Source: Tetragonia tetragonoides (Eukaryota; Streptophyta; Magnoliopsida; Caryophyllales; Aizoaceae). From it: a stretch of DNA of 64,000 nucleotides. The DNA lies in NCBI GenBank assembly GCA_038025085.1, contig CM076139.1, positions 23,887,307 through 23,951,306 on the forward strand, read 5' to 3'. Made by a program: the position numbers and the translations under genes. The notes below the pieces were generated by a model, which worked only from the letters and a program-made list of their open reading frames with translations, was not told the DNA's origin and did not search any database. Below, one piece after another: positions 26,988 through 62,696 of this stretch; within the stretch, counting starts at the first letter, position 1; each line of letters starts with the position of its first letter.

Positions 26988-27628
26988 TCTAAACAACCTA
27001 CACGCAAAAAAGATAAATATTAAAATAACTGCATTTGTACCAAAATACTAAGGGGCAAAAGGAAAAGAAAAAACAAAAGGAATAATTATCACAACCCTAC
27101 CAGAAAAATAAATGCACTTGCACAAACAGATACTAGGGAGCGGAAAGAAAACAAATTAGAAGAAGGAAAATTTTCATGTCATATTCCTTTCTCTCTTTAA
27201 ACGCCTATTAGATTTAAGGAACATTAAGCTCGGTACGAAAAAATCAACAGCAACTCTTACAATTTGCAATTTAAAAAGTTTGCAGATGCTTAGGGAGTAG
27301 GGACAATGCCACCAAGTAAAACAATCTTCACATCACGGCGGGATAGCACTAAGTATCAACTCAGTAAGCAGTTGATGAACGGATGTTGCTATGAAACATC
27401 ATAGCGAAAAAACTATGCCCAATACTGCTTCAAGCACTCTTGAGAAAATAATTAATCCAGGAGAAAGTGGGATTACCTAAAATCCTCTCCGTGATAAGAA
27501 TGCGAAAACATACTCGCAAAGACGCTATTGCCAATGCTTTATATGAGAGTCGAACATATGCAGCAGACTTAAAAAAAAAAAAAAAAAAAAAAGACAAATA
27601 TGCCTCATAAAAGAAAGGCTGAAGTATC
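26988..27628 (-). other. Leader intron and upstream region of the F-box gene
   Basis: Non-coding. The splice acceptor at about 27001 implies a leader intron. A GTAATC donor-like site at 27471-27476 on the minus strand is one candidate for its start. An A-run of about 22 bases lies at 27571-27592. Confidence 0.4.
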
Positions 27629-33769: not shown

Positions 33770-35585
33770 CTAGGTGTACAACCCGTGCGATGCACGGGCT
33801 TGTAGTTTATCATTAGAAAAAACTACTTTGAATGCTATCAAGAAAATAGGGTAATGTAAAATCACTTATGTGTCATGTAATGTGTTTTGGCAACCGTTGT
33901 TTTGATACATGTAGATAAATTAGTTTCTTATCTTTTTTTATACTTAAAGAAATTTATCGAAAAAATTAGTGTTTAAACCTACATTATTTATATTATTTTA
34001 CCAGTTTACCATATTGCTCCATCTCCATGAATCATATATTTTTGTTAGGGTATGGAATCACTTTGAAGTTTGAGATGCATAATATGTAAATTTACACGTT
34101 AGTTTTAAATTATTTATGCATTTATTACTTGTGACTATTTTCCCTTATTAAATTCGTTTTATCTAATTTCTGTTGCATTTAATGTTTTGACCCAAATGAC
34201 ATGACAACCAATGTGACGCTTATTTGGATGTCACGTGTCGGTGCAGCAGTTGTCCTGTGCGATGCACATGCTTGTAGTTTATCATTAGAAATTTTATTTT
34301 CGAAAACGACACTTAATGGGAGTATCATTGAACTTGAAAACATTATTATATAAGCATTAAAAAGTTAATAAATATTGCATTTAATGTTTTGACCCAAATG
34401 ATATGACAACCAATATGGCGTTTATGTGGATGACACGTGTACCATGCACGGGCTTGTAGTTTATCATTAGAAATTTTATTTTAGATTATTTCTACTTCAT
34501 TAGAGATTAATGATTTATCAATATATAAAATATATAGTAAACAATATTAAGTAATACAAAATCAAAGTTGTGTGTGCTATTTAAAGTAGCTTACATGACA
34601 TGCTCAATTGATGGGATTCGAATGGATAATAAATAAATCTCATACTGTAAAACTAATTTCAAGAAATAGCTAAGTGACAGGTTTATAACTACCATCTTTA
34701 CACGCTCTACCAATCGTTATTTTAAAACCTCCATATGCTTTTGTATTCCATAACTTTATACCCTCTCATAATCAATCTCCATTAGTAATGGTTCTTGTCC
34801 CTCTTGATTTACATTGTATTATGCGTAAAATTATTTATGTTTTATGTCTGCCTTATGCAACGGTTATTTGGATTCACATGGACAACTCAATTAATGTCCG
34901 ATTTAATTAAAAAAATTATTGATAAAATAGTTATGTTTACAGCTACCTTATGGTTACATGTACCTTACTTAAATATTATAATAATCCACTATATTTCTTT
35001 GGTATTTATGTCTCTGGCCGTATATTTTGCTTGGATTCTATGGGTGTATGAGCTACGACTCCCATGAGTGTATGAGCTACGACTCTAATGGATGTTTGAG
35101 TTTCTGCTTAATAAAATGGACTAATAAGCATTAAAAAAAACTACTATATTTCTCCATTTCATGGAGGATCACTTAGAAATTTTAAATATCTAAATTTACC
35201 GATACGTGGATTTTATCTGTTAGCTTTGTAGTCTTTATGCAAAAATTTTTCCTTACTAATTAAATTCGTTGTACTTAGTTTAATTATTATTTATTTTAAG
35301 TCCATGTACCATATTTATGAAATTAATCTTCATGTATCAAAATAATTAAATTCGATATACCTTATTTTAAATTTTATTTTAAGTTCATGTATCATAGTTA
35401 TGAAATTAATGTTCATGTATACTAATTTAATTAGACAAAATAATTTATGTATCCTAATTTAATTTAATTTAATTTAATTGATGACATGGCATTGACTTTT
35501 TATAAAATGATGACTGGACAGGGTGATGTGGTATGACACATGTCGATGCAGTGACTATCATGATCCAATATATATATATATATAG
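33770..35585 (-). mobile_element. Non-autonomous Helitron (3' end clear, 5' end uncertain)
   Basis: Read on the minus strand, 33770 is the end of a Helitron: hairpin CCCGTGCATCGCACGGG (stem 7, loop 3), eight bases, then CTAG followed by T outside. Partial copies of the same terminal block (CTTGTAGTTTATCATTAGAA on the plus strand) recur at about 34273 and 34452. A preceding phrase (TTTAATGTTTTGACCCAAAT on the plus strand) also recurs at about 34178 and 34379. The 5' end is guessed at the TA-rich run near 35570-35585. No Rep/helicase ORF. Confidence 0.6.
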
Positions 35586-35677
35586 GTTAGCGAAGGATGT
35601 TTATGAATGTTCATTGTTTAGATTTTTTTTAAGGGCAAAAAATGATTCGGATTCAATCATTTTTGCAAGCGTTTGAT
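35586..35677. other. Left flank of the Tat element
   Basis: Short AT-rich flank whose last five bases TTGAT (35673-35677) form the target duplication of the LTR element, repeated at 51438-51442. Confidence 0.85.
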
Positions 35678-37195
35678 TGTAAGAGCCCTCGCCTCTTCCC
35701 GGCTCTCCATTAAAATCGTGATTTTATTCGATTGGGATTAATGGTTCTTAATAATACGTCATATGCAATTTAATTTAATTATGGGGAAGAACAATTAGCA
35801 AATAAGAAGCCGCCACCAATTTTTAAGGAAACAATTGGAAACCATCAAAAGTGCACCTAGTTCCTATTGGGAATTGACTCATGCCCATGAGGACTATATA
35901 TTGAGTTCGGGGGAAATAAACAAAACGAATCTCATCTAAATCGCCCGTATAAACGGCCTCAACTAAGCTTATTCATGTCAAATATTTATTTATACTATAT
36001 GGTTCCATACAAGTCCGGTCGTCCAAGATCCTAAATTAAGTAGGCGGGTTAAAGACAACCAAATTATCTAGGTTATCACTTCGCACAATTTATATCCAAT
36101 TTACATGCATACTATTAACAAGCATAAACAAGATATAAAGCATTAAACGCTCCAACCTACCGCACTTTACTAAACGCGCCAAGCATTGTATATGCACATC
36201 AATAAAATTGTTAGTAACTTCAAAAGAAAAACAATGCAAAGATATTAACTTTATGCTAAAATAAACCTAGGAGGCTACTATATGCACGCAAAAACTACAA
36301 AAAGATGCAAACTTGCATAACTAATAAAAAAGATGCTAACTTTATAAACTAAACATGCATAATTATATACAGAACCCAAAGCATGCAAATTTATTCATCC
36401 ATAATCAAAAGCTAAATAAAACATGATTGATAAATAGTAAACAAGAGATTTAATAAATAGTTTAGGCCCTCAGGATGGTTAACCTGGACGTTCTATTCGA
36501 TCGGGACTAGTAGAATTGGAATTGCTCTTTGATCTTGGGTGCTAGGCTAGGTGTAATGCTTGCTTGGATCTTCAGATTTTTGAATTCTTTTTGATTTGGG
36601 GAAATATGTGCTCTCAATGCTCTCAAAATTATGAACTGACTGACCTCCTTAAAAAGAGGATGAAGATGAGTATTTATAGAGTTGGGGGACGGATTTTGAG
36701 GCTTAGGGTAAGAAACCCGGCGCCACAACTCGGCCCAGCCAAAAAACCGGCCCAGCGGCCACACGGAGGACAGATGGGGCCCGCGGCTGGGCCGCTGGGG
36801 CTCAGCGGCTGGCCAGAAGGCCCTCGCTGTCACGCGCTGGCCGCCGGGCAGGTAGCGATTGCCGCTGGACCTGACGGCGCGCGTGTGACTAGGGTTTTTG
36901 ACTTTTTGTGCTCATTAAATTACGAAATTGCCCTTGGGCTGACCCAGGGGGTCGGGATTGAGCGGTTTCGACCCAAATCTTCGAGACGCGATATCTCTTG
37001 ATCCGGGAACCTGATTGAGGCAAGGTCAAAGGCGTTGGAATCCTTATAACAAGGGCTATCCAAAGACTGAGGTTTCTAGGAGTTTGGTCTAGATTTTTGA
37101 GCAATGTCCTTTTCTACTTACGTCCATGTTAATCCATTACCATCAACATCGGGCGTTGCGGTGCCAGGGGATAGGAACCGATTAGGGTGTCTACA
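35678..37195 (-). repeat. Tat 3' LTR (left)
   Basis: 1518 bp. It lacks an 11-12-base segment present near 50143-50155 of the other LTR. It contains a GC-rich palindromic block at 36720-36890 and a TATAAATA box on the minus strand near 36672-36679. Confidence 0.95.
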
Positions 37196-37210
37196 GAAGC
37201 CCCCACTTTG
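37196..37210 (-). promoter_or_regulatory. Tat polypurine tract
   Basis: On the element strand AAAGTGGGGGCTTC lies directly before the 3' LTR, the expected plus-strand primer. Confidence 0.8.
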
Positions 37211-37344
37211 GCCGAGCTTGTAAAAACGAAGGTCAAAGTATTTGCTTAAAATGTCTGCAATGTTTTTGAAAATGCTTTATGTTAGAAAGAAAGGAAAGAT
37301 AGACTCATGACCGCCTGTGGTCAGGGTTACCTGCTTTGTTTTTG

Positions 37345-37608
37345 CCAACGCGATGCTAATTTTAATAGCTTCGTCGTCAAAGAGTGTTGCGTTGCTCTGC
37401 TTTGCGGGTGCTAACGTGACGCTAATTTTAATAGCCTCAACGTCAAAGAGCGTTGTATTGCTCTGCTTCAAGGGTGCCAACGTGACGCTAATTTTAATAG
37501 CCTCATCGTCAAAGAGCGTTGTGTTGCTCTGCTTCAAGGGTGCCAACGTGACGCTAATTTTAATAGCCTCAACGTCAAAGAGTGTTGTGTTGCTCTGCTT
37601 TAGTGATG
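37345..37608. repeat. 66-bp x 4 minisatellite in the element's 3' region
   Basis: Units start at 37345, 37411, 37477 and 37543. Each contains GCTAATTTTAATAGC and GTTGCTCTGCTT. The unit is 22 codons, so it stays open on both strands; on the minus strand it reads LKQSNTTLFD(D/V)EAIKISVTL per unit. The last three units are nearly identical. Tandem arrays in the 3' region are known for Tat/Ogre elements. Confidence 0.95.
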
Positions 37609-37960
37609 CCTGTGTTTTTGGAAAATTGTACCTGCAAAATATAATAAAGTGCCTGTGCCTGTTAAAGATTAGATGTAAGGCTTGCGCCTGTAAAAATAGA
37701 TAACACCGAGTCCCTAGGATAGGAAACCAAGCTGTGGGGGTGAAAGAGTCATTGTGGGTGAGATGCCCGAACCTCCCGGGCTTCCAACGGTCGAGAAATG
37801 CAATCCCGCGCGGAAATTGAATTTGTGGGCCCGCCCAGTGAGGGGCAAACGAAAAAACTGGTTCGGCGGCCACGCACAGGGCCGTCGAGCGCTGGGCGGC
37901 CTTTACGGGCTCGCTCGGCGGCTCTTATGGCCGTGCGAAGTCTGCTAGAGGGGCCGCCCG

Positions 37961-38046
37961 GCCGCTGGGCCAGTTCAGAGGCGAAAATCGGGTATTTTGT
38001 GGGGCCGCTGGCCCGGTTCAGAGGCGAAAATCGGGTATTTTGTGGG
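37961..38046 (+). repeat. 43-bp tandem duplication upstream of antisense PMD gene 1
   Basis: GCCGCTGG(G/C)CC(A/G)GTTCAGAGG, continuing CGAAAATCGGGTATTTTGTG, occurs at 37961 and again at 38004 with only two differences. It lies in the putative promoter/leader, about 280 bp before the ATG. Confidence 0.9.
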
Positions 38047-38322
38047 GGAGCCAAATTTTTGGGTCATTTCTTCCTCAAAAATTCGATACTCTCTCTCTCT
38101 CTACCTCCATTGTTGCCCAACCTTCATTTCTTGCTCAAATTTGCTTCTTTTGTTTGCATTTGCTTGATTTTGCATAATCTTTACACAAATTGAAGTTTAT
38201 TTGTGATATCTCACAAATTTGGGGTGAATTTGAGAGTGGGTTTTTGAAACCCTTGGAGAGAGAAAAATCCCAATTTCTCCATTTTGCTTGTTTGCTTTTG
38301 CTTGCTTTGCTAATACTTCTCC

Positions 38323-41082
38323 ATGGCTCCTAAATTGGCAAGGAAGAGGAGTAGGAGGACCGAGGTCCGGGAGGAGGTTGAAGAAATTGATATCTTCACC
38401 AAGGCTTTTCCTTCCCATATGAGGCCTTCAAAGAGGAAGCCTAATGTGGCTTTTCCTCAAGATAGATACACGCGATCGAATAGGATGCCTGACATCATTT
38501 GGGATCGATCGGAGTTGCTTTTCCGACCAGAGACTCACTTGAGCTACCGTGCTTCCAAGTTTGTGGTAAGCCTCAAACTTTGAATTCATAGTTTTATGTA
38601 TTGAATTTTAGTTTATATGCTTTGCCTTGAGTAGAATTTGCGTAGGAAATGTATGCAATTGTCAAGTTTGTAGCGCATGTGATCTTGCGCGGCTTGACGA
38701 ACTTAGAAACATGCTTAGTATTGAACATTTGTGTGAAATGTGAACCTAAGGGGGTTGCAATTTTGATCATAGGAACCCATTGGGAATTTGAAGCCCCATG
38801 GTAATTATGGCTCTTCGGTGAGACTTTTTAAGGTCTTGCCTAAAGAGGTGCAGAGTGCGGTTTTGGGTGCGGGGGTTGGACCCCTTTTGAAAGCGGCGGA
38901 CTCGGTTGAGTGAGTCAAGAGGTGCATTTTCTGCTTGTCTTTGGAGCGTTTTTGGGATACTACCAACACATTCCATTTCCCTAATTGGGAGATGATGATC
39001 ACTCCATTGGAGTTTGCTATGCTGACTGGGGTACCTTGCGTGGGTACGCCCATTGTCTATGACGTTTCCATCTGGAAACGTAAGACAGAGATGGTGGAGT
39101 TGTTTGGCCCTTGGGGGAACACCTGGGGTCACCATTATCGTCCCTATAGCGAGCTCTATGCCGCTTTGACTGACGCGAGGTACAAAAGAAACACCTCGGT
39201 GGAGCAGAAGGCGAGGATGTTCATCGCCTACCTCCTTGCCACTACTATCTTTGGTGACAAGGGGGAGCGTATCCATGCTATTTACCTCCCTAGCTTGTTG
39301 GATTGGGAGAGGGTGAGAGAGTACAACTGGGGGTTGCCGGGCTACGCCAACCTCTTGAGGTGCATGCGGTTTGCTTGCCGCGTGAATGATGAGGGATACA
39401 AGCAATCGACTCTTCCTCCCGTGAGCTTGTGCGGTTTCTGGAAGGCCTTGCAGGTACGTTTTGCTTTTTGTATCCGTTTTGGCAATTTGCATGATTTAAG
39501 TGTGTGGTGCTTAATTTCATGTTTCGATGTAGCCTTGGTTTTTCGAGCATTTCCCGGACATGGCGCCTACGGGCTCGGAGTTAGACTTCCTGGTTTGCAG
39601 GACGTGGCGTCATAGGGGTCCTGCGCCCTTCCAGACTCTTCAGCAGTATAGGGAGGCCCTCCTGCGCCTAGACTGGCACAAGGTAACGCAATTTTGCTTT
39701 TCATTGCATGGGTTGTATTTCTTGGTATGGAAATATCTTATATTTCATGTTTGTGTAGATTGACTACTTCCCATGGGCGAAGTATCATGGGTTGGCTTCG
39801 GATGCTGTCCTTTCATCTAGGGCGATAGACCGCCAGAGGATCCTGATTGCGGGTCTGGTAGTGGTATTTGGGAGAGCGGATCTTCCGTCAAGTTTATCCT
39901 GATGTAGTGGGACCAAGGATTCCTTTGGATCCTCCCTCGACCATGTTTTTGGTGAGGTGCTTGTCTCGCGAGCAAGTTACGGAGGCCATGGTGGGCTCGG
40001 ATGCTATGCGGTATTTGAGGGAGCCTGCGGAGGACCTTGCGGGGCACTACGAGCAGTTCCGTCGTGATCGCCTCATGCCTTCATTTGTGGGTTTGAAGGT
40101 AAGAACTTCATATTTGTCATTCTATGCCTTTCTTGTTTGTTGGTTGCTAACCTTCTTTGCTTTGTAGGAGCCTCGGGTTGATGACGTTGATGTGGATATC
40201 CCGGATATGCGGGTCCGAGGTCGGGACTATGGCGGGAAGGAGTGCTGGGGAGATGTCCCCATGACGGAGGACCTTGATAAGGACATTCAGGGCCTTCCTC
40301 TTCCAGTTGGGCATCCGGGGGTAAATTCGTAATTTTACATGTTGTATGTGATTTTTACCGTTTTCAGGCTTGTACTGACTTTTCTTTGCGCAGCTTGACC
40401 GTGAGCAGACCGGGAAGGTTTTCAGGATGATGCATACCATGAACTCCTAGATATCTCGAGCTCTCTCGAAGGGCACTTGCTCGAGGGCTGACTTGGATAA
40501 GGTAAGCTTGATTTTGCATTTCCAAAGTTGTATGCTTTGAGAAATGTATCTTATATGTTTAGTGGGTTGCAGGTTGAGTATCGTCGACCCCTTCCTCGTC
40601 GGTCACGACACGTGGTATTGTCGGATGATGAGGTTGTGAGCTCGCCTGAGCGCATTCCTTCTCGTGAGAGGAGCCCTCGGAGGGAGAGTCCTAGGAGAGA
40701 GAGGGAGCCTGTTCATCGGACGAAGCGTCCTGGTGGGAGTAGGATGGCTCCGTTTGTAGAGCCTACTCCTATGCCTATGCCGATGTATCCTTTTTATCCC
40801 AGGTATGCGGGGTATGCTCCTTATGGCGGTCTTTACTACCAGCCCCCTGTCCCTGCTCCTGTGATGCCTACCATGCCTCCTCGTTCTTCGTGGGGGTATG
40901 ATTCGAGTTATGTTGGAGAGGGGTGCTCGTATCGGGAGCCTACCCGTCATTTTTCCTTTGACCCTGGCCAGTTGGCGGCGTCGATCTTTGGCGATGAGCC
41001 ACGGAGGTCGGAGGATCACATTGAGGTGCTCCCCACGGATGCTGATGCGAGTGATGATTTTTATGATAATGTATTTGTATGA
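38323..41082 (+). pseudogene. Antisense gene 1 of the Tat element: seven-exon plant mobile domain (PMD, MAIN-like) protein
   Basis: Exons 38323-38565, 38773-39453, 39533-39682, 39759-40098, 40168-40320, 40394-40501, 40573-41082. All six introns (69-207 bp) have GT-AG ends and are phase 0. Product about 727 residues. The basic N-terminus looks like a nuclear signal (KLARKRSRRTE, RPSKRKPN). The PMD core is ERFWDTTNTFHFPNWEMMIT, then EFAMLTGVPCVGTP, as in the plant mobile domain family that includes MAIN/MAIL proteins. The C-terminus is Arg/Ser-rich, then Pro/Tyr-rich. Lesions: TGA at 38911-38913, a one-base frameshift near 39862, TAG at 40448-40450. PMD proteins act in gene and transposon silencing in Arabidopsis; a role here is inferred only. 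Orientation is opposite to gag-pol. Confidence 0.82.
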
Positions 41083-41534
41083 AATACATTTTTTGACCAT
41101 TTGAACATTTGATCATTTTGTATTTGAACAAAAATTCTTATGGAATATTGCTCCTTTATTGGTCCCTGCATATAATTAGGCTAATGCAAATGCACAGGTA
41201 GTCAAGCAGAAAGCGCAAGTAATAGCCATGTAGCAAAAATGGTACAGCCAAAAAGTTAAAATTGGGTGTACCCTATCCCCCCTAAAAAAAATGAAAAAAG
41301 AAAGAGATGCAAAAAATGAAATAAGATTAATAAGTATAAAAAGGATTAATAAAAGAAAAGATGATAATCATCCAAAAAAGAAATAAGAAAATTGTGGAGT
41401 TCCCATAAATAATTAAGAAAATAAAAGAAAATAGTAATAATAGAAGAAATAGGAAACTGAGCCAAATTGGAGTCCAAAACGGTTAAGGAAAGTGTCCAAA
41501 ATCGGGTAGAAGAGGGCTGTTTCGAAAAAACAGC
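41083..41534 (+). other. Spacer between the two antisense PMD genes
   Basis: A-rich, non-coding sequence after the gene 1 stop; an A/AAG-rich part lies at 41285-41460. It probably holds the gene 1 terminator and gene 2 distal promoter. Confidence 0.5.
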
Positions 41535-41715
41535 TCGGCGGCCAAAGGGAGGTACTCAGCGGCTGACGCGAAGGAGTGGGGGTCAAAAGAGGGGCCGCCA
41601 GACTCAGCGGCTGGGCCGCTGGAGCTCAGCGGCTGGCCGTTGTGGTTCAGCGGCTGGGCCGCTGCTGCTTTATCGTGGCCGCCGAGCCTTCAACGGCTGT
41701 CCCAAGGGCCGCTGA
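41535..41715 (+). promoter_or_regulatory. GC-rich palindromic block upstream of antisense PMD gene 2
   Basis: CTCAGCGGCTGGGCCGCTGG and variants (CAGCGGCTG, GGGCCGCTG) recur at least five times. The same words are found in both LTRs (about 36775-36850 and 51015-51110), and related ones upstream of gene 1 (37865-38015). They look like a shared regulatory or structural module. Confidence 0.6.
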
Positions 41716-41766
41716 AGCCCTTTTTTCGACGGGTTGCCTTATTTTCGTCTTTTTTCGTGTGAGCCC

Positions 41767-41773
41767 TATATAA
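41767..41773 (+). promoter_or_regulatory. TATA box of antisense PMD gene 2
   Basis: TATATAA lies about 100 nt before the ATG at 41873 and directly after the GC-rich block, giving a predicted leader of about 70 nt. Confidence 0.65.
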
Positions 41774-41872
41774 GCCTTGGGTTAGTCCGGTTTTGGGACA
41801 TCACCTTCATAATTTACTAGCAATAGAGAGCTTTTTACAGAGAGAAACCCCCAATTAATTTAGATTTCAGCC

Positions 41873-43418
41873 ATGACGAGTTTTGAGGTTAAGTTTGATA
41901 AGTGGTTGCAATCTATGACCCCTGAAGAGAGGATGAGACTTGTGCCCTTCCACTTGAATGCTCTCTTCCACTTGAAGCAAGTTCAAATTGTTTGGAACCT
42001 TCTCGAGGCTGCCGTTGAATTTTGGGATGACAAACTCCATGTTTTTAGGTTCGGGTATAATGAATTATGTCCTTTTCCCGAAGAATTTGCTGCCATACTT
42101 GGGTTCCCTCATGATCAAGCTCCTGCTACTCCATGGCTCGGGGCCAACCTTGAAGGCTACTATAAAAGGAATCTTGGCCTATCACCAACACAAGCCTCCT
42201 CCGTGGCTAGAACCGGCGAGCTAGACCTCAATGGTGTGATTGATATCTTTTTCCCCAAGGTAAGGGATGATCACAATGAGACATATTATAGACGTGCTTT
42301 TATCTTATGTCTCTTACATAGGTACCTCTTTGTTGCTGGAGGTAATAATGGTAAAACTTGTATGCTTAGAATTGTTGAACAAATTCAAAACGATTTTACC
42401 CCTATGTCTCTTGTTCTTGGTGAAACTTTAATTTGCTTGGACCGCAAGAAACAAGAACCATCGCCTGGTGGATGGACGGGAAGTCCTCTTCTCCTTCAAG
42501 TGAGTGCTTGAATAATTTTATAAAATCTGAATATTTAATGGATACCTAACTTTATATGTTTTTTTTTGTATTTGTTTTCTTCATTGTAGATATGGCTCTT
42601 GAAGCATATGTGCTTCATTGAGAGGCCGGTTAATGCGCTCAAGTATCAACCAAAGCAATTTTCCGCTCGCCGAAGGCTTTATATATGAATCCACCATTGA
42701 TGAATGGCGTGGATACCTTAAAGCTTGCCCTTTGCTAAGATGGACTATTAAGTGGTGGGGCCTAAAATCCGCAACCGGATGCAGCAAGGAGACGGGATAT
42801 TATCAAATCCTTGGTCTTCAAAACTTGACTTACATATTTCCTAGCCGTATCATGCGACAATATGGGAAACGCCAGATTATCACACAGAAGGATAGTGTTG
42901 CTCCCGCTACTCGGGCTTTGACTATTAGTATGGTGAGATCTTGGGAGTGTGCATGGGATCGTCGCCCTAAGTGGACTATTCCTCATATCAAAGCCCCAAC
43001 GGCCATATCTTCGGCTTATGAAGCGTGGATGGATTGTAAGACTGCGGAAGTTCGTCGTGCATGCAGGAAATCCGAACAAGACGATCTTAAGGCCCAATCG
43101 GTCAAGGCTACCCTGAGGCTTTCTAACCCTAATGATCCTAAAGGGAAGGGTAAGCAAAAGGGAATTAAGCATGTGAAAAGTGTCCTCAACCCGAAGGCCA
43201 AGAAAGCTTTAGCCAAGATTACTACTAAACCGGAGGAGAAGCCCCAAATTCGGGCCAATGATCATGAAGCCTCTTCGAGTGTTCCTCTAGTGGAGGTTGA
43301 AAAAGAAGAAGAGCCTTTGGTTCGAGAGAGATGGGCTCCCAAGGAACGTGAAGTGGAAGACCCGAAGGTTGATGAGCCCATGGAGGATACAGTCCCTACT
43401 ACCGAAGCTACGGAGTAG
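41873..43418 (+). pseudogene. Antisense gene 2 of the Tat element: PMD/DUF7745-type protein
   Basis: Exons 41873-42499 and 42590-43418; donor CAA|GTGAGT, acceptor TTCATTGTAG, phase 0. About 485 residues. The N-terminal domain has VWNLLEAAVEFWDDKLHVFR, then FGYNELCPFPEEFAAILGFP, the pattern of the aminotransferase-like/DUF7745 branch of plant mobile domain proteins. After the intron come IWLLKHMCFIERPVNALKY and STIDEWRGYLKACPLLRWTI. The C-terminus is Lys-rich, then Glu-rich, likely disordered and nuclear. One single-base frameshift near 42686 separates RRRLY from ESTIDEW; the rest of the frame is open, so decay is slight. The gene ends head-to-head (convergent) with the element's integrase about 0.4 kb away. 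Confidence 0.82.
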
Positions 43419-43829
43419 TCTATTAGGAAATACTCTTTTGGAGCATGTCTAGCTTAGGATTGCCTTTTACTTGCTTTAAATTCAATAAGGGTGATGTGCC
43501 CCTTAGATTTAAACTTAGTTTAGTTTTTATTGTTATTTAGGAATTGCCAAGTCTTGTAATGGACTTTATTATTATTTATAGAGACATGCTCATTTTAATA
43601 TTGCAACCTTGTGTTTATTTTGTGCACAACTTTTAACAACTTTTGAATGCGAATTTGATGAAGGGACCGGGCCCAATTGCAATTGGGTTGTCCTATGTAT
43701 CCTTTTAGGGGAATCAGGCCGCTCGTAGTTCTTATCCGTTTTTTGTTTAACATTAAATCCCTTTTTTTTTTTCGGGATTCGTTAGCCTTATATAGGCCTC
43801 TCGCCAGCGCTATGTTGGGTGTCTTGCCT
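43419..43829. other. Convergent intergenic segment inside the Tat element
   Basis: Lies between the stop of plus-strand PMD gene 2 and the end of minus-strand pol. Transcripts from both strands would end or overlap here. T-rich with AATAAG-type signals; no ORF supported. Confidence 0.5.
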
Positions 43830-46800
43830 AAGCATAGAACCTCTTTAATTGATCCATGTTTATCCATTGACTGAATTCAATCCCGTCTAAATCCGCTAAT
43901 CTTGCGGCGCCACCCGTTAACATCTTTGTGATGATGAATGGGCCTGACCAGTTGGGTTGAAATTTGCCTCTTGGGTCAGTGACATTGGCTCTTACTTCTT
44001 TAAGTACTAAATCTCCAACTTAAGGTCCCTCATTTTGAGCCTTTGGTTAAAGTGCCTAGTTAGTCTCTTTTGATAGACTCTTACGTTGTGCAAGGCTTGC
44101 AACCTTTTCTCATCTAGCAAGACTAATTGGTCATAGCGGGCTTGGACCCAGTCCACTTCTGAAATTTGACTTTCTAAAATGATCCGTAGAGATGGGACCT
44201 CTAACTCAATCGACAATACGGCTTCCATTCCGTACACCAGGGAGTATGGTGTTGCTCCCGTCGATGCGCGGACCGATGTCCTATAACCCCAAAGTGCGAA
44301 TGGGAACTTATCACGCCAGTCATGATAATTTTCGGTCATCCTTTCAATGATTTTCTTGATGTTCTTGTTAGCTGCCTCCACTGCGCCGTTTGTTTGCGGT
44401 CTGTAGGGAGACGACTTTCGATGCTGGATCTTAAACTGGGTTAAAAGCTCAATTACCTCTTTCATGAAGTGTGACCTATTATCACTAATGATTTCTTGGG
44501 GAACTCCATATCTAGCTATTATGTTATTCTTAATGAACTTAACCACATGCTTTGCTTTGAGCTTTGCATACGATTGTGCTTCGACCCATTTGGTGAAATA
44601 GTCGATTGCGACCAGGATATATTCGTGGCCCCCTTTTCCTGTTGGGGTTATTTTGCCGATGATGTCGATTTCCCAAGCCGAGAAAGGCCAAGGTGAGGTG
44701 AAGGTATATAGTGGGTTTGGTGGTAATATGTTGTAGATTTGCATGTGTTTGACATTGTATGCACCTTTTGACAAATTCAAAACAATCCTTCTCCATCGTT
44801 GTCCAATAATACCCAAGCTTTATTATTTTCCTAGATAGCATCATAACGTTCATGTGCGGTCCACAAACTCCTGCGTGTACTTCCCTTAAGACCTTATGGG
44901 CCGTTTCAGTGCCTAGGCTCAGGAGATTGACTCCGTTTGGGCTTTTCTTGTATATTTGACCTTGTACCTCTACGAATTGGGCTACAAGTCTTCTGAGTGC
45001 CTTTTGGGCTCTAGGGCTAGAATCAGGAGGGTAGAGCTGGTAAATGAGTAGATTCTTTATATCGGTGTACCACTCATCTTCTTCATCGTGGAACACTTCC
45101 AAGATGTCGCAATATGAAGGCTCGGATCTTCTTTGTACACAGATGAGCATCATCCAAATAGTTTCGGGTATGTTGATCATGCTTGCTAATTTAGCAAAGG
45201 CGTCTGCAAATTGGTTATCTTCTCGTGGAAGGTATGTAAAGTGTATTTAATTGAAATACACTATGATCTTGTCTAAGTATTCTTGGTAGAGTGCCAAGGA
45301 TTCACTTTTAACCTTCCATACTTTGGAAATTTGGTTAATTATGAGTGACGAGTCCCCATAGACTCGAAGTGTCTTAATGCCAAGGCTTATGGCGGATTGC
45401 AGTCCTATTATGCAAGCTTCATATTCTGCGCCATTGTTAGTGACTTCGTGGTCCAATTTGACTGAAATAGGTGTATGTGCACCCTCAGGGGATACTATCA
45501 GTACTCCTACTCCAACTTTGGTTGGATGCTCCATCGAAATATAGTTGCCAAGTCTCAGTATCTAAGGTCATAACCCCTTCGTCTGGGAAGTGATACTCAT
45601 CCTTGAGATCAGGTTCGTTTATAACTTGGTCAGCCAGGTATTCCGAGATAGCATGCCCTTTTATGGCTTTTTGATGTTCAAATTTAAGGTCGAATTCTGA
45701 GAAGAGAGTGGTCCACCGTGCTATTCTACTATTTAGTATGGGCTTTTCGAATATGTATTTCAAAAGATTTTCTCTCGATCTTATGTGGATCGTGTGCTGG
45801 AGCATGTAATGTCGCAGCTTTTTAGTAGTTGCTACCAAAGCTAGGCATGTCTTTTCTAGGGACAAATAGCGGGTTTCGTACTCCAGAAACTTCTTGCTCA
45901 CATAGTATATAGCTTTCTCTTCCTTGTCTATTTCTTGCAGCATGGCTCCCATTGACGTTTCTGTGACTGTAAGGTAGAGGATTAGAGGCATGCCTGGAAT
46001 GGGCGGCACTAGAACAGGTGGTTCGGATAAGTAGGCCTTAATTTTGTCAAAGGCCTTTTGGCATTACTCTCCCATTCCGTCTTTACCTCTTTTTTGAGTT
46101 TCTTGAATATGGGCTCACAAGTGATAGTTAATTTGGAGATGAACCTGCTAATGTATTGGATCCTCCCTAAAAAGCCTTTTATTTCCTTTTCTGTTTTTGG
46201 AGGTGGCATGTCTATTATGGCTTTGATCTTGGATGGATCAATTTCTATTCCTCTGGTGCTTATGACAAATCCTAGAAGTTTGCCGGATGTGACTCCGAAT
46301 GCGCACTTCTTGGGATTAAGCCTCATATTGTACTTCCTAAGCCTATCAAAGAACTTCTGAAGTGAGGGTACATGCCCTTCTCTGTCTTTGGATTTTATGA
46401 TCATATCATCTACATAAACTTCAGCCTCCTTATGTATCATATCGTGGAGCAAGGTTGTAGCGGTTCTTTGATATGTGGCTCCTGCATTCTTAAGCCCAAA
46501 TGGCATTACTGTATAGCAATAAGTACCCCATTGTGTGATGAAAGTGGTTTTCTCTTCATCCTCTTTGATCATCAAGACCTGGTTATATCCTGCGTACCCG
46601 TCTATAAATGATAGGAGGGCGTGTCCGGCAGTATTATCTACTAGGAGGTCTATGTGGGGTAAGGGAAAGTCATCTTTTGGGCTTGCTTTGTTCAAGTCCC
46701 TAAAATCTACACACATTCGTACCCGTCTGTCCTTTTTTGGGACTGGGACGATGTTGGCTACCCAATCGGGGTAATTGGCCACTCTTATGAAGCCTGCATC

Positions 46801-48897
46801 TAGCTATTTTTGGACCTCCTCTTTGATCTTAAGGGCCCATTCTGGTTTCATTCTTCTCAACTTTTATTTGACTGGTTTGCAGTCGGGCTTTAGTGGAATG
46901 GTATGCTGGGCAATGTTGCGGTCTATGCCTGGCATGTCCTTGTAGGACAAGGCGAAAACATCCGTATAATTCTTTAGGAGTGTTACGAATTGTTCGCGTT
47001 CATTAGATGTTAAAGACAAGCCTATTTGCACGTGGCGAGGCTCGTCATTAGCTGCAATATTTATTGTCTCTGTTTCTTCGACTATTGAAGTCTTTTGTTC
47101 ATGTTCGATTAATGCTTTGATGACTTCTTTTGGCAATTCCGTTGTATCCTCTGAATTATTAGCAATGAGGCAATCCGAGTAAGCAAAATCGACACTCATA
47201 ATATTAATAGAAGCGGACAATACATCAATGAGGCCATCACTAAGGACCTTAGTAATAGCAGGAATAGACTGGGGTGGACTACCCGACTCTTCTAGGATAA
47301 CAGACTCAGAATCAGACTCGGACTCGGAATCAGACTCAGAATCAGAAATGGGCCCCTCTGTAGGACCGTTGCGAATCGTGAACTTGTACTTGGCTCCCTT
47401 GACTGGAGTCCACTTTGTCTCGTGCTTCCAGGTGGTGCGGTTGGGCCCGATTGGAGTGATCAGATAGGAGGGATCGAACCCTTCTTCTATGTCAATGGCA
47501 AAAGAATTCCCGAGGGGATTATTGTTGTTGCTGGGTGGCGGCGCATCTTTAGGCAATGGTATAGTGCCATTATCGAACAAATCCTGGATTTTATCCTTGA
47601 GAGTGTAACATTTTTCAGTATCATGTTCATGCCCCTTATGGTATTTGCAGAATGCAGACTCGTTCCAATACGGTGATCTTTTCTCTACAGGTGGATCGGG
47701 AGTAGGCCCAATCGGATGTAGATAGTCTCCTTTGATCAATTTGTCTAAGGCCTTGACATAAGGCATTCCGAGGGGAGTATACCTTCTTGGACGCCTGTCA
47801 GCAATGGCGTTCACCTCATTTCCTCTACTTGTGGAGGCATCGTTGGTATTAATGTACTTCTTATCCTTATACCCACTTGTATTGTTGTTGTAAGTGACCT
47901 TGTTCTTTCCTCTTTGGAGTTGGTCATCTTCAATGGCCATGCCTACTTCAGTTAGTTGGGCATAGGTGGTTATGGGTTGAAACTTCATGTGTTCGTGGTA
48001 CTCAGATGCCAAATTTTGGACTAGCATTCTAATTTGATCCCTTTCAGATGGGCGATCAATCATTTCAGCAACCTTAGTTCTCCACCTTCTCACGAAATTG
48101 GTGAACCCTTCTTTGTCACCTTGTTTGGTGCTATCCAATTCTCTCAATGTCATGGGAGGCAAGACATTGTCGGCATACCTTTAGAGGAACAAAGTAGATA
48201 AATCCTCCCATTTTTGCAACTTTTGGGTGGGCAATTTGAAGAACCAGGCCCTGACAGCAGGATCCAAAGTTTGGGGAAAGAGGTGAACATACAGCTCTTG
48301 TTCAATGCCTCTAAGGCCCAATGCAGTAGTGAAAGCTCTAATATGATCTTGTGGATCATCGGTTCCTTTGAAAGTGGGAACTTCAGGCATGGAAAACTTA
48401 GTGGGTAGTTTTCCCTTGATGTGGGGAGCATAGCCTTCAGAATTGAGGATCATGTCGTTAAAGACACGACTTTTGCTAAGGACATATTCAAGCCTGTTCA
48501 GTTTCGCTTGGAGTTCTTGGACCTCTTTAGTGGAGGGTTCAGCCTTTTCCTCATCGGGCTCGGGCTCATCATCATCCCTAGTAGGGGGATCCAACTTAGC
48601 GACACGGGCTTCCATATCAGTGAATCTAGAATTCATAACGACCATTTGGGCTAAAAGGTCGTCCATCTTTTGGTCAGCGGTTTTCTCAGCGTCTCCAGAC
48701 ATATCGGACTTAGGTGAACTAGGTGGTGAGGCTCGAGGTGACAATGGCGGTGTGCGAAGGTAATCGAGCCAAATGGGGCCCACGAACTGTGCTTGTGGTG
48801 AAGGTTCGAACGACAAGTTGCGGACTAACCTCTTGCTGGACTCGTCCCTCTCCCACTCCCTAGGACCGGGATCTTTACTCCTACCAATTCTGGACAT
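43830..48897 (-). pseudogene. Tat gag-pol (RT, RNase H, aRNase H, integrase; no protease seen)
   Basis: Start ATG at 48897. Gag: VPTFKGTDDPQDHIRAFTTA and the zinc-finger-like CKYHKGHEHDTEKC. An acidic SDSESDSESESDSES linker comes next, then DVFALSYKDMPGID directly leading into RT (VPVPKKDRRVRMCVDFRDLN, YVDDMIIKS). RNase H (LEYETRYLSLEKTCLALVAT) follows, then archaeal-type RNase H (WQLYFDGASNQ, NNGAEYEACIIGL, VYGDSSLIINQI). Integrase has a CIQC zinc site, the acidic residues in WEIDIIG and ISDNRSHF (Gly lost), and NGAVEAANKNIKKIIERM, ending GPFIITKMLTGGAARLAD. Lesions: stops at 48181, 46864, about 46806 and 45247; frameshifts near 46062, 45515, 44730 and 44025. No DTG/DSG/DNG protease motif lies between gag and RT. 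Confidence 0.92.
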
Positions 48898-49887
48898 AAA
48901 AAGGCCCGTTTAAAAAATGGAAAACTCCACAGAATAAAGATTTTTATTTTAAAACAAATGTGGGAAGAGAATCTAGCACTAATCCTCAACATGGTGATCT
49001 TTTGTGAAAGACGCGATTTTATGTAAATAGCATATTCTAGTCAATGATCTTTCGACTTTATTAGGATTATAAATACTCTTAACTTGCATATGGGATGAAA
49101 TTCCCTAATTTAAGGAAAGGAGATGTACTATTGACTTGCATATGGAATAAAATTGGACTCTCTTTTTTTATTTGGTGAAAGATCATTGACGGGAATATAT
49201 TATTTGCATGCAATCTAATTCTTAGGGAAAGGAACATCTTCCTAACATGATCACTAGCGTCATCGGAGTCATACAGGGATTCTACTTCCTAAAAAGAAAA
49301 GGATCCTAGACTCTATTTGTAAACTTGACAAAACGCAAAAGCAAACAAAAAGGAAAACCTTCGCTAACCAGGACTCAAAAAAGGAATCCTAAGGGGGATC
49401 TAATCCTAATATTCTATGGAAACTAATCACATAGCAAAGAAACAATCAATCATAATATATTAAGTAAATCAATTAGCACCTTCACATGGACTATGGGACA
49501 TAATGCAATAGTTGACACAATCTATGGTTGGATATGGTAACTCACGACCGGATGCATTTCGTCATCTATGGGGTGCATAGTAAGACTAGACATACAGTTT
49601 TACACATCTCGAATGGAAACATGTAAATGCCATGGGGTGGAACACGACTATGTGCAAAGGTAATTCGGACCGAGTGGGTCACCGGCCTAAGTCATAGACA
49701 ATGTTCCAAAGGGTAATTCCTGTTTATGGAGAGGTGATGTCTTTCGACATCTTGCAATGATAACGCATGCAATATGAATGATATGGATGCAAGAGCAAAG
49801 AAAATAAACACATACGGTAATTGAACCAAATAGCTAAAATAAATTATTGACATGGATAAGTGTTCGAATTACACTCTCTTGTTATTT
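48898..49887 (-). other. Tat 5' untranslated leader
   Basis: About 1 kb between the primer site and the gag ATG on the element strand. A-rich; no coding frame. It presumably contains the packaging region. Confidence 0.65.
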
Positions 49888-49907
49888 GTCCCCAGTTGAG
49901 TCGCCAC
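49888..49907 (-). promoter_or_regulatory. Tat primer-binding site
   Basis: GTGGCGACTCAACTGGGGAC on the element strand, directly next to the 5' LTR. TGGCGACTC...TGGGGA is the primer site form I know from Tat/Ogre elements (assigned there to tRNA-Arg, from memory). Confidence 0.82.
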
Positions 49908-51437
49908 TGTAAGAACCCTCGCCTCTTCCCAGCTCTCCATTAAAATCGTGATTTTATTCGATTGGGATTAATGGTTCTTAATAATACGTCATATGCAATT
50001 TAATTTAATTATGGCGAATAACAATTTGCAAATAAGAAGCCGCCACCAATTTTTAAGGAAACAATTGGAAATCATCAAAAGTGCGCCCAATTCCTATTGG
50101 GAATTGACTCATACCCATGGGGACTAAATATTGAATTCGGGGGTGTAGGTACGAAATAAACAAAACGAATCTCATCTAAATCGCCCGTATAAACGGCCTC
50201 TACTAAGTTTATCCATGTCAAATATTTATTTATACTATATGGTTCCATACAAGTCCGGTCGTCCAAGATCCTAAATTAACTAGGCGGGTTAAAGACAACC
50301 AAATTACCTATGTTCTCACTTCGCACAATTTATATCCAATTTACATGCATACTATTAACAAGCATAAACAAGATATAAAGCATTAAATTAACGCTCCAAC
50401 CTACCGCACTTTGCTAAACGCGCCAAGCATTGTATATGCACATCAATAAAATTGTTAGTAACTTCAAAAGAAGAACAATGCAAAGATATTAACTTTATGC
50501 TAAAATAAACCTAGGAGGCTACTATATGCACGCAAAAACTACAAAAAGATGCAAACTTGCATAACTAATAAAAAATATGCTAACTTTATAAACTAAACAT
50601 GCATAATTATATACAGAACCCAAAGCATGCAAATTTATTCATCCATAATCAAAAGCTAAATAAAACATGATTGATAAATAGTAAACAAGAGATTTAATAA
50701 AGAGTTTAGGCACTCAGGATGGTTAACCTGGACGTTCTATTCGAACGGGAGTAGTAGAATTGCAGTTGCTCTTCGATCTTGGGTGCTACGCTAGGTGTAA
50801 TGCTTGCTTGAATCTTCATATTTCTGAATTCTCTTTGATTTGGGGAAATATGTGCTCTCAATGCTCTCAAAATTATAAATTGACTGACCTCCTGCAAAAG
50901 AGGGTGAAGAGGAGTATTTATAGAGTTGGGAGACAGATTTTGGGGCTTAGGGTAAGAAACCCGGCGCCACAACTCGGCCCAGCCAAAAAATCGGCCCAGC
51001 AGCCACACGGAGGGCAGCTGGGGCCCGCGGCTGCCGCTGGGGCTCAGCGGCTTGCCAGAAGGCCCCCGCTGTCACGCGCTGGCCATCGGGCAGGTAGCGA
51101 TAGCCGCTGGACCTGACGGCGCGCGTGTGACTAGGGTTTTTGACTTTTTGTGCTCAGTAAATTACGAAATTGCCCTTGGGCTGACCCAGGGGGTCGGGAT
51201 TGAGCGGTTTTGACTCAAATCTTCGAGACGCGATTTCTCTTGATCCGGGAACCTGATTGAGGCAAGGCCAAAGACGTTGGAATCCTTATAATAAGGGTTA
51301 TCCAAAGACTGAGGTTTCAAGGAATTTGGTCTAGATTTTCGAACAATGTCCTTTTCTACTTACATCCATGTTAATCCATTACCATCATCATCGGACGTTG
51401 CGGTGCCAGGAGATGAGAACCGATTAGGGTGTCTACA
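49908..51437 (-). repeat. Tat 5' LTR (right)
   Basis: 1530 bp. A TATAAATA box on the minus strand at 50915-50922 puts the transcript start near 50885. It carries the GC-rich palindromic block at 50955-51125. Confidence 0.95.
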
Positions 51438-51775
51438 TTGATGTTGTGCAATCATCGTCCATCGTGGTTCTTTCATATTTGTGTATATTACTTGATAATT
51501 ATTTTTACTCATACTAATATATATCTTTCTTTGTTTTTTTTTTGTCACTTGACATGAGGGATATTTAAGACAGAGAATGAAATATAAGGAAATTTATTTG
51601 GCAACAAACTAGCTATTTATCCCATGGTACATGTACATAAAGTACACACAAACACAACAAATCACAATTCTTATTCAATGTCATTCCTAGGCAATAATCT
51701 TATTCAACCATTTTTATGATCTCTTCTATAAGAGTCATACTTAAGAAGAGACTAGAAGGAAACTTGCAAAGATTC
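51438..51775. other. Right flank of the Tat element
   Basis: Begins with the TTGAT target duplication. AT-rich; the portion near 51775 is the likely 3' flank of the Bet v 1 relic. Confidence 0.5.
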
Positions 51776-55875: not shown

Positions 55876-58800
55876 TTACTCATCAGTAGCATCTGTTACA
55901 TTCAGCCCTTGCCAACCTAATTTGGTAAAGTCCAATTCAAAGCGACCAACAAAGTCGTGAGAGGCTGCCCAATTAGCAAGAAAATGAGCTAACGCATTAA
56001 ACTTCCTAGGAATAAAATTGATAGAGACTTTATATACATTACAAAAAGAGACTATTTCTTCAAAACTTCTTCTGTTCTCCCAAGGTAGTTGATTACCCTT
56101 CTTCAAGTAATCTGCACACGCTTTTGCATCAGTGAGGATTCTTCTGTTTTTCATTTCTTCAGCACTGTTATCCTTAAAAATCTTGAGAATTGCTTTCGTT
56201 TCTGCTTCAAAGGGCACATTTGTTTTCACTTTTGTTGCAGCCGCTCTCACTACCTCTTTTTTGTCGTCAAAGAGAACCCAAGCAATGAAGCTCTCCTCCT
56301 TTCTAACTGCAGCATCCGAGCAGTAGTGATATTCTCCCTCTACCTAGTTTCCAACGGATTCAGAGTCCTTGGTTCTGTCATCTTCCACTTTCTCAGTATC
56401 CCACACCACTTGGATGTCTTTCCAACTTCTCTTCACATTCTCAATAATTTTCTCCGGGCTTGCATCCCTATTCTCATGAAAACTGTAGTTTCTTTCCTTC
56501 CATATGCAATCAAGAATCACCAAACTCTTCCTACTAACCTCTTCCACAAATTCTTCAGGGATGTTTAGTAACTTTGCAGGCCTTATACAAGCTTCTAGCC
56601 ATTGTTTTCCTGTCCATGAAGCTAGTAATTCAGTTCTGATTCCCAGCACCTGGAACCATACCAATTTTGAGCAAGCACACAAGAAGAAGAGATGTTCAGT
56701 AGTTTCTGCCTCACCCTTGCAAAGAGTGCAATCCTTATCTGTAATGTGGACTCTTTTTTGAATTTGTTCCTTGGTTGGTAGGCATTTTACTGCCAGTCTC
56801 CATACCATCATCCTGATTCTGTGAGGGATTTTAGTTTTCCAAAGAGACTTCCAAAACCAGCCCTCGAAGAGGCTATCTGGTTGTTGCTGTTTTTCCTTCA
56901 GGCTCTTGTAAGCCGACTTGACAGTAAAATTACCATCTTTGCTTTTTGTCCATATCTTGCTATCTGGGCATCCATGCCTGGGGAGCTTAATTCTAAGAAT
57001 AGCCTTTGCAGACTCCTCATCAAAAATCTCAGTAATGAGCTCATAATTCAAGCAGTTATCAGAGATCAGTTCCTTCACCATTGTTATGTAAGGAATTTCT
57101 TCAAGTTTAGTGGTAGGAATAAAACCATCAATATATGGGACCCAGGGTTCAGTCCATATATTGATGTTTTGGCCATCCCCAACCATAAAGCAGTACCCCT
57201 CTTTGATAATATCCCTACCCTGAATCTGAGGATTGTGGTTCCACAAAAGATGGCCCATATCTACCACTGTACTTCCTCTTACACTGATTCACCCACAGTT
57301 TGTCCTCCCCACTCATGAGTTGCCATGTAACTTTAGCTTGCAAAGCTAATTTCACATCTTCCATAAGCCTGAAGTTGAGCCCCCCTTTAGCCACAGGTTG
57401 ACACATATTTTTCCAGGCTTTATAGTAGATGCCTCTTCTAGACTTGTCATAACCCACAAAAAGTCTCGCACAGCTGCATCCAGTTCATGGCAAGTGCTCT
57501 TTGGTAGAATATTGCAAGACATAGCATATGTAGGCAGAGAAGCAACCACTGCTTGTATAAGAGTTGCACGTTTTGCATATGAGAGAAGTTTAGCTTTCCA
57601 GCTTTGGATTTTATTTCGCATTCTTTCTATTTAGAACTGGAATCTTTTCTTCTTTCCTTGATTTCTGAAAAAAAGGTAATCCTAGGTAAACAGGTGACCT
57701 ATCCATTTTTTTAAGCTTTAGGACTCTGTTCACACTCAAGATATTTTGTTTTCTGGTTTTTTTACTAAAGTAAATACCAGACTTCTGCAAATTTGCTCCT
57801 AGACCTGAGTAGGTAGCCATATCATTCAGAGTTTGATTTATGGCTCTAGCATTAGCTTCATTTGCTCGGCCAAAAACCACAAGATCATCAGCATATAAGA
57901 GATGACTTATAGGGTCACATCTCCTATCAATTGCATTACCCTTCCAAGTCCCTTTCTCCTGTTCTCTCAAGATTAGTCTAGGCAGTAGATCCATTACCAT
58001 AACAAAGAGAAAAGGGGACAGTGGGTCCCCTTGTCTAAGGCCTCTCTGGGGTCTGAAAAAACCTTTAGGTCTGCCACTCTTTAAAACAGAGAAGGACGAG
58101 GTAGTTACACATTGCATAATCAGCTGGATAAAGTGTGCAGAGAAGCCCAAAGCCCCCAAAATCCCTTCGATGCACTGCCATTCGACCTTGTCATAGGCCT
58201 TGGCCATATCAATTTTCAAGGCCATCAAACCTCCACAAGAGTTTGACTTGTTCATAGTATGCATGATTTCATTGATCATAAGAGTGTTGTCAGAGATCAG
58301 TCTCCCCAGCACAAAGGCTGATTGGGAGGGACTAATTATTCTGTTCAAATGTTTTTTTAGCCTGCCAGCAAGAATTTTTAAGACAATTTTGTAGGAGACA
58401 TTACACAAGAAGATGGGTCTGTAGTCCCTAACAGTAGCAGCTTTTTGGGTTTTGGGGATGAGGGCTATGTGATCAGTGTGATTCATCTCTTTGAGGAGGA
58501 AACCTTCTCTAAAGAAGGCTTGGACCATTCCAACAACATTGTCTTTAATAATAGGCCAAGAATTTTGAAAAAAACATGGCCGAGAAGCCATCCGGGCCAG
58601 GTGACTTGGAAGGATGCATAATCTCAATAACATATTGAATATCAGAGGGGGAGGGAATTTTGCATAACTCTCTATTATCATCATCACTGATCATGTTAGG
58701 AAACAAGTCAGCAATATTATCAATTGTACCTGGATGATCAGAGTGGAAAAGATCTTCAAAATACTTCAAGAATGAGTGAGTGATTTCATTGAGGTTGTTT

Positions 58801-59950: not shown

Positions 59951-60129
59951 TGGGGGGTTGGGGGCAAGGTCTGGCTCGCCTCCTCAGCCTTCTTGTTAGC
60001 TTGGTCAAACTGATCCAGCAAATCTTGGTAAACATCAAACTTCCCAGCAAGTCTCTCTTCTATCTTTTTTGCAATAACTCTTCTCTTGCCCTTCATTCTT
60101 GCCCTATTATCTTTCTTGGACATAATCCC

Positions 60130-62600: not shown

Positions 62601-62696
62601 AGCTTGCGGTAATCAAGAGATAATATGTTCAGTAAATGCTATCAAGACTATCTAGCCTAGATAAGAATAAGGTAATTAATATATAATTTTGCTCGA

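Follow-up and report, generated by a model that had tools for sequence, protein, structure and literature searches.

Extra open reading frames (ORFs) of plant mobile domain (PMD) type were reportedly described in Ogre retrotransposons by Steinbauerova et al. in 2011. It is already known that 57% of Ogre elements contain ORFs of pfam10536 (Neumann et al. 2019, PMC6317226), that angiosperm Gypsy elements encode two PMD clades (2017, PMC5418596) and that elements of this kind carry antisense accessory ORFs (PMC7264820); the use of PMD proteins by transposons against silencing has also been suggested in print (PMC8616336). A protein from another type of transposon, VANC21 of Arabidopsis VANDAL21, binds a short motif repeated in the non-coding parts of its own transposon and removes methylation there (PMC5735166, PMC10398659). 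Here, we analyzed a stretch of 64,000 nucleotides from Tetragonia tetragonoides (contig CM076139.1, positions 23,887,307 to 23,951,306; hereafter the window), in which positions 35678-51437 are one inserted Ty3/gypsy element of the Tat lineage with its coding on the minus strand. This element is a decayed copy of a high-copy Tat family that carries, as regular parts, two genes of the PMD superfamily, both antisense and both with introns.

Both genes lie on the plus strand, antisense to gag-pol, between the integrase and the 3' long terminal repeat (LTR). Their introns can survive retrotransposition, because the genomic RNA runs antisense to both genes and is not spliced at them. Gene 1 consists of the following exons:

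38323-38565, plus strand, gene 1 exon 1
38773-39453, plus strand, gene 1 exon 2, the PMD, with one in-frame stop in the window copy
39533-39682, plus strand, gene 1 exon 3
39759-40098, plus strand, gene 1 exon 4, with a frame change in the window copy
40168-40320, plus strand, gene 1 exon 5
40394-40501, plus strand, gene 1 exon 6, with one in-frame stop in the window copy
40573-41082, plus strand, gene 1 exon 7, rich in Arg/Ser and Pro by eye

All six introns are of the GT-AG type and fall between whole codons of the flanking open frames. Six of the seven exon lengths are multiples of three; the exception is exon 4, whose 340 bases hold the frame change and after which the running phase is shifted by one. 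When exon 2 (after its stop), exon 3 and the early part of exon 4 were joined, the product matched PF10536 with an E value of 7.3e-22 and 78.4 bits (cut-off 34.9), and exon 2 alone after its stop also exceeded the cut-off with 54.1 bits. Four homologues were found, all from Papaver and 24-43% identical. With two in-frame stops and one frame change, gene 1 of the window is broken.

Gene 2 follows downstream with a promoter element of its own:

41767-41773, plus strand, TATA box TATATAA of gene 2, 106 bp before the ATG
41873-42499, plus strand, gene 2 exon 1, DUF7745/PMD-like (Pfam, homologues)
42500-42589, plus strand, gene 2 intron, GT-AG, phase 0, at a position common with read-through homologues
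42590-43418, plus strand, gene 2 exon 2, with a frame change in the window copy and a later part that is Lys-rich by eye

Its best family was DUF7745 (PF24924), with an E value of about 1e-4 and 22.0 bits, below the cut-off of 26, and PF10536 gave no match to its exon pieces in the window. A homologue designated P0002 (45% identical) exceeded the cut-offs of both DUF7745 (44.2 bits, cut-off 26) and PMD (41.2 bits, cut-off 34.9) over overlapping residues, and the two family profiles align with each other (probability 92.6%, E 4.5e-7). Among 55 aligned proteins, comprising 51 of gene 2's family and the four Papaver PMD proteins, a PMD match was obtained in 43 and a DUF7745 match in 50 at E 1 or better. 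On account of these relatives, namely the double match of P0002 and the profile alignment, gene 2 is regarded as a probable divergent relative of PMD, nearest to DUF7745. At the position of its intron, 16 of the 51 homologues read through, 15 turn into a stretch starting with V (many of these resembling unspliced intron by eye), one behaves otherwise and 19 are unjudgeable. Gene 2 of the window is broken by one frame change. The preliminary description, made from the sequence alone, had spoken of two different intron-bearing PMD genes; the two genes, the introns and the TATATAA of gene 2 are indeed there, and the name PMD has to be qualified for gene 2, given its place nearest DUF7745.

To find other copies, the host genome (752.8 million bases) was searched with gene 2 exon 1 including three intron codons (query P0001). 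Of 5678 candidates, at least 150 were scored as matches; they include the window itself and are 91-100% identical. Twenty other copies at ranks 2-80 of the 150 scored (L009-L028) were sampled, each fetched from the 3' LTR to the integrase. All 20 contained LTR sequence, though several only part of it; gene 1 was present in 19 (not in L017), gene 2 exon 1 in 20 and exon 2 in 19 (not in L012), and the integrase in 18 (not in L011 and L012); order and orientation were identical in the 19 copies with both genes. Since this sample had been picked by gene 2 itself, reverse sampling was performed with the integrase, which gave at least 143 scored matches of 12267 candidates. Eight loci at ranks 2, 20, 40, 61, 80, 100, 120 and 139, none of which was in the gene 2 list, all contained sequence of both antisense genes, whole or partial; the stretch of L029 holds the gene 1 end only, with gene 2 exon 1 interrupted, and gene 1 exons 1-3 were not found in L032. 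The expectation that other copies share the LTR, the integrase and both PMD genes in place was hence borne out in 19 of 20 and in 8 of 8 cases.

The ratio of nonsynonymous to synonymous substitution (dN/dS) was then determined over the 190 pairs formed by the window and 19 copies; L017, without gene 1, was left out here as well as in the retention, open-frame and distance counts, and the blocks compared take in neither gene 1 exon 4 nor the start of gene 2 exon 2. For gene 1 exons 1-3, gene 1 exons 5-7, gene 2 exon 1 and most of gene 2 exon 2, in this order, the median dN/dS was 0.15, 0.23, 0.12 and 0.15, the upper 95% value 0.33, 0.84, 0.33 and 0.74, and the number of pairs below 1 was 190, 182, 189 and 188 of 190, as against medians of 1.67, 1.46, 1.46 and 1.21 in a control read one base out of frame. 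The integrase, taken without such a control, showed a median of 0.17 over 167 of the 190 pairs, those with a shortage of sites or an undefined ratio being set aside. While the family spread, purifying selection acted on both genes at a strength of the same order as on the integrase. Moreover, the GT-AG borders of each intron were retained in 16-19 of 19-20 copies (L017 counted) despite varying intron length. The low dN/dS together with the kept splice sites indicates that the genes were translated and useful during the multiplication of the family, and the selection data mark these antisense spliced genes as working parts of a high-copy retrotransposon family.

Open frames are by now rare, as they were seen in none of 19 sampled copies for gene 1 and in one of 19 for gene 2. 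From the LTR divergence, about 1.8 and 1.5 nonsense changes were expected in genes 1 and 2 of the window, and 2 and 0 were observed; frame-changing indels, at a rate taken from three LTR events, were expected at 2.2 and 1.4, and one was observed in each. As the observed damage is near expectation, both window genes fit an intact state at insertion. The pairwise distances, which rest on decayed copies, several with local gaps, correlated between LTR and gene 1 (0.49) and between gene 2 and integrase (0.53), and less so between gene 1 and gene 2 (0.19), LTR and integrase (0.13), LTR and gene 2 (0.07) and gene 1 and integrase (-0.08); recombination among subfamilies may have taken place.

The remaining anatomy of the element in the window is as follows:

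35673-35677, no strand, target site duplication (TSD) TTGAT, left copy (sequence)
35678-37195, minus strand, 3' LTR, left in the window, 1518 bp (LTR comparison)
36672-36678, minus strand, TATA-like box TATAAAT in the LTR (motif scan)
37196-37213, minus strand, purine-rich tract like a polypurine tract (PPT), adjoining the 3' LTR (sequence)
37343-37600, no strand, 66-bp tandem array of 3.9 copies next to the 3' LTR (repeat call)
44007-45180, minus strand, integrase (INT), H2C2 and rve core, in two frames (Pfam)
45250-45561, minus strand, second RNase H, at the aRH position, RVT_3 (Pfam)
45488-46063, minus strand, RNase H (RH) of the reverse transcriptase, RT_RNaseH (Pfam)
46012-46782, minus strand, reverse transcriptase (RT) (Pfam)
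46864-48897, minus strand, gag-like region, ORFs split by a stop, with a weak Gag_p24_C match below the cut-off
49888-49906, minus strand, putative primer binding site (PBS) beside the 5' LTR, PBS-like TGGCGACTCAACTGGGGAC (sequence)
49908-51437, minus strand, 5' LTR, right in the window, 1530 bp (LTR comparison)
51438-51442, no strand, TSD TTGAT, right copy (sequence)

Both genes are inside one inserted unit, and the LTRs, PBS, PPT-like tract and TTGAT duplication on which the preliminary description had based this claim were all confirmed. The LTR pair showed 1445 matches and 71 mismatches over 1516 aligned sites, corresponding to a Kimura two-parameter (K2P) distance of 0.0485. At a substitution rate of 1.3e-8 per site per year, this divergence would mean an insertion about 1.9 million years ago. 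The minus-strand order is RT, RNase H, RVT_3, H2C2 and integrase core, so that the aRH sits between RH and INT as in the Tat clade, of which the LTRs, 5-bp TSD, PBS and PPT are equally characteristic. This order, with the second RNase H between the first and the integrase, is that of the angiosperm Ogre and Retand clades of Tat (PMC6317226), and the PMD extra ORF points to Ogre rather than Retand only by frequency (PMC6317226). The gag-pol of the window copy is broken by several stops and frame changes.

Across L009-L028, the 66-bp array comprised about 1.9 to 4.1 units, and L024, L026 and L027 yielded no array with this period; in L017, there are two sites each of the 66-bp and the GC-rich array, and the LTR-side sequence is seemingly present twice.

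Compared with the described systems, the window element resembles Ogre in being a Tat-lineage gypsy element with a second RNase H between RH and INT and with extra ORFs (PMC6317226), and differs from it, in a comparison that takes in the Ogre papers without their figures and supplements, in having two distinct PMD-superfamily genes of seven and two exons. PMD proteins encoded by angiosperm Gypsy elements are likewise the common point with the two Gypsy PMD clades, which the passages of PMC5418596 do not place together in one element. Retand with antisense TRP28 (Vicient 2025, PMC11963269) and maize Grande with gene 23 (PMC7264820) share with the window element a long region between pol and the 3' LTR, antisense accessory genes and tandem repeats; the Retand accessory genes, however, are TRP28 (97% of clusters), Smc and others, with no PMD in Table 1, and Retand LTRs measure 315-1194 bp, in contrast to about 1520 bp here (PMC11963269). 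The preliminary description had called two PMD genes in one element unusual. PMD ORFs as such are nothing new in Ogre and Gypsy elements, and what the open literature, taken without figures and supplements, did not yield is an element with two spliced genes of the PMD superfamily on which selection had been measured, a prior mention being possible. Three viral scans and one genome scan for relatives of the genes in IMG/VR and GTDB contigs gave a few pattern matches, none of them confirmed.

As to what the proteins do, a link to VANC was suggested by structure prediction. A model of P0002, built from 15 sequences (pLDDT, the predicted local distance difference test score, 79; pTM, the predicted template modelling score, 0.81), was compared with the PDB by Foldseek after the VANC literature had been consulted, and the best of 23 matches was 9lnj, which is VANC21 with its target DNA, at a probability of 0.98, the other 22 being at 0.08 or less. 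In addition, gene 1 exon 2 weakly matched DUF1985, a VANC domain (PMC5735166), with an E value of 9.1e-6 and 26.1 bits, below the cut-off of 35.1, and such a match was likewise obtained in three of the 55 aligned proteins, all Papaver PMD proteins. DUF7745 is named nowhere in the open literature searched, nor was any tie between the PMD and VANC folds found in it, although a prior mention is possible.

A second line of evidence came from the repeat CAGCGGC (GCCGCTG on the other strand), which accumulates in the following blocks:

36753-36867, no strand, cluster of four CAGCGGC/GCCGCTG copies in the LTR, 75-189 bp upstream of its TATA-like box
37961-38010, no strand, pair of CAGCGGC/GCCGCTG copies within a 43-bp duplication upstream of gene 1
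41557-41714, no strand, gene 2 promoter cluster of seven CAGCGGC/GCCGCTG copies, of which four make up two dyads CAGCGGCTGGGCCGCTG, located 53-210 bp upstream of the TATA box

All 16 copies in the window fall in these element blocks (four and three in the LTRs, two upstream of gene 1, seven upstream of gene 2), and 13 remain when the right LTR is not counted, whereas no exclusive 7-mer exceeded eight copies in 200 local dinucleotide shuffles. Between the LTR block and the block upstream of gene 2, 31 of 32 bases agree, at a score of 59 versus a maximum of 35 in 300 shuffles. Across the 20 copies (LTR-to-integrase part), 185 of 193 CAGCGGC occurrences lie inside the three blocks, seven of the eight others being in L017, where the alignment is unsafe, and the repeat is present in all three blocks in 18 of the 20. 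No TATA box was detected upstream of gene 1 with the patterns tried. The ratio of observed to expected CpG is 0.82-1.11 in the three promoter blocks, 0.60-0.75 in gag-pol and the two genes and 0.32-0.41 outside the element; the higher ratio of the promoter blocks may be due to low methylation, or to nothing more than youth and composition.

On the basis of the fold match and the repeats common to the promoters, we propose a VANC-like action. Both proteins would act in the nucleus as sequence-specific DNA-binding factors, would bind the promoters of their own element much as VANC21 does in VANDAL21, and would thereby keep the LTR and antisense promoters unmethylated or active. To the whole explanation, regular antisense PMD genes with a VANC-like promoter action, we assign a probability of roughly 0.5; the odds of the model-based VANC-like mechanism are about even, and the structural and selection claims stand far higher. 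A wider proposal, that PMD and DUF7745 belong to the VANC DNA-binding fold family and that Tat elements have a two-protein, sequence-specific anti-silencing system with targets in the LTR, gene 1 and gene 2 promoters, is put forward tentatively, as conceivable but short of probable. If true, a retrotransposon lineage and a DNA transposon lineage would share one fold against silencing, and MAIN and MAIL1, the host PMD proteins, would be domesticated versions reading a promoter motif directly; the fold link to a DNA-bound anti-silencing protein makes such questions directly testable. The possible likeness to VANC21 (Hosaka et al. 2017, PMC5735166) lies in the predicted fold of the gene 2 homologue. 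VANDAL21 differs in being a DNA transposon, in its motif YAGTATTAY and in the domains DUF1985 and DUF287 (PMC5735166), and its motifs stand in one orientation, in contrast to CAGCGGC, which stands in both and is here a candidate target repeat known from sequence.

Several observations weigh against the VANC-like mechanism. The 9lnj match has a Foldseek E value of 0.078 and a template modelling (TM) score of 0.42-0.45, below 0.5, and searching the PDB by profile or by sequence retrieved no match even at E 10. The PMD-type model, built from five sequences, was poor (pLDDT 37) and unusable, and the fold link therefore rests on gene 2's family. Among the promoter blocks, that of gene 1 is weakly like the other two, with a best score of 32 versus a shuffle maximum of 28 (n=300) and scores elsewhere not above it. 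CAGCGGC was retained at 0.68 versus a median of 0.63 for the GC-rich 7-mers of the same blocks (rank 71 of 158), and the GC block of the LTR is no better preserved between the LTRs, with 13 of the 87 differing columns in 211 of 1518 bp. Because neither shows excess conservation, the promoter blocks may be repeat-prone GC-rich DNA.

Among the alternatives, an unlikely one that nevertheless survives best is that the antisense proteins serve the replication cycle, whether by bringing the pre-integration complex into the nucleus, by targeting integration or by handling RNA; such roles have been proposed for other accessory proteins encoded in antisense in the Tat lineage. The constraint of genes 1 and 2, being of the same order as that of the integrase, would fit such a role, as would the Grande gene 23 protein, which is nuclear and has its own promoter (PMC7264820); the role leaves unexplained, however, both the VANC21 fold match and the repeats common to three promoter blocks.

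A role of the proteins as decoys or dominant negatives directed at the host MAIN/MAIL1-PP7L complex appears quite improbable. MAIN and MAIL1 are PMD proteins required for transposon silencing (PMC7156037, PMC5418596) and gene 1 encodes a PF10536 protein, but the low identity of its Papaver homologues speaks against a decoy, gene 2 with its proximity to DUF7745 is farther from the MAIN type, and no phosphatase domain was detected in the exon pieces scanned (all but gene 1 exons 1, 5 and 6). MAIN and MAIL1, which are PMD-C proteins, have the PMD domain in common with the window element and are linked to a promoter motif, 'DOWN' (PMC7156037, PMC9899485), but they are host genes maintaining silencing, and the only DOWN motif CATGCAGTTT of the window lies at 22785, outside the element. 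The VANC21, VANC6 and DOWN motifs formed no cluster within the element. The idea of the preliminary description that an element-borne PMD protein counters silencing, already in print (PMC8616336), gains some support from the modelled resemblance to VANC21, and not by the MAIN/MAIL route.

Little credence is given to the proteins as self-limiting repressors, or to the antisense transcripts mattering as RNA, through double-stranded RNA or copy-number control, with the proteins secondary. Antisense transcription has been discussed as a source of small interfering RNA for such elements (PMC7264820), and the shared promoter repeats would fit a repressor too; median dN/dS values of 0.12-0.23, however, show selection on protein and speak against a role as RNA only, an argument by which a repressor protein is unaffected. 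Lastly, a one-off nested insertion or chance ORFs in an ordinary Tat element are ruled out, for although PMD genes also travel in Mutator-like element (MULE) transposons (PMC5418596), the arrangement recurred in other copies (19 of 20 and 8 of 8), purifying selection was evident, and a nested MULE test of 37196-44010 revealed five short imperfect inverted pairs only (15-24 nt, 75-93%), none convincing. One inverted pair encloses both genes (37627-37650 with 43563-43586; 24 nt, 75%), and its 9-bp flanks differ by eye; no target duplication of the PMD block's own, which had been named beforehand as the mark of a nested insertion, was seen there.

Elsewhere in the host genome, at least 129 PF10536 matches were found (117 of 8472 candidates scored). 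Long PMD gene clusters, mostly without stops, are located on C9 near 42.07-42.32 Mb and on C15 near 4.41-4.61 Mb; stretches of about 4 kb around these genes (L001-L008) gave no tblastn match at E 1e-3 to gene 1 or 2 pieces, RT or integrase, and the C9 and C15 genes therefore look like a different PMD branch. About 70 further PMD copies, dispersed and near-uniform, cover profile positions of about 9-346 and usually contain one in-frame TAG, perhaps within a read-through intron of another PMD-carrying family.

Within the window, Rfam, tRNA and bacterial-type promoter scans gave nothing useful. Host-type genes are represented by a pentatricopeptide repeat (PPR) protein ORF at 2252-3940 and a weak F-box-like ORF at 26241-26996. 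A Ty1/copia element at 11779-17412 is flanked by direct repeats (11779-12334 and 16858-17412, 96% identical) and contains a gag, protease and integrase ORF at 12625-14703 (Pfam) and an RT-like ORF at 14723-16045 (by eye), and ORFs for reverse transcriptase and endonuclease like those of long interspersed nuclear elements (LINEs) were recognized by eye on the minus strand at 6070-10995 and 56344-63955. Just outside the Tat element, at 33784-34485, three dispersed 48-bp copies (77-100% identical to the reference copy) with GCTTGTAGTTTATCATTAGAAA in common are perhaps a small non-autonomous repeat.

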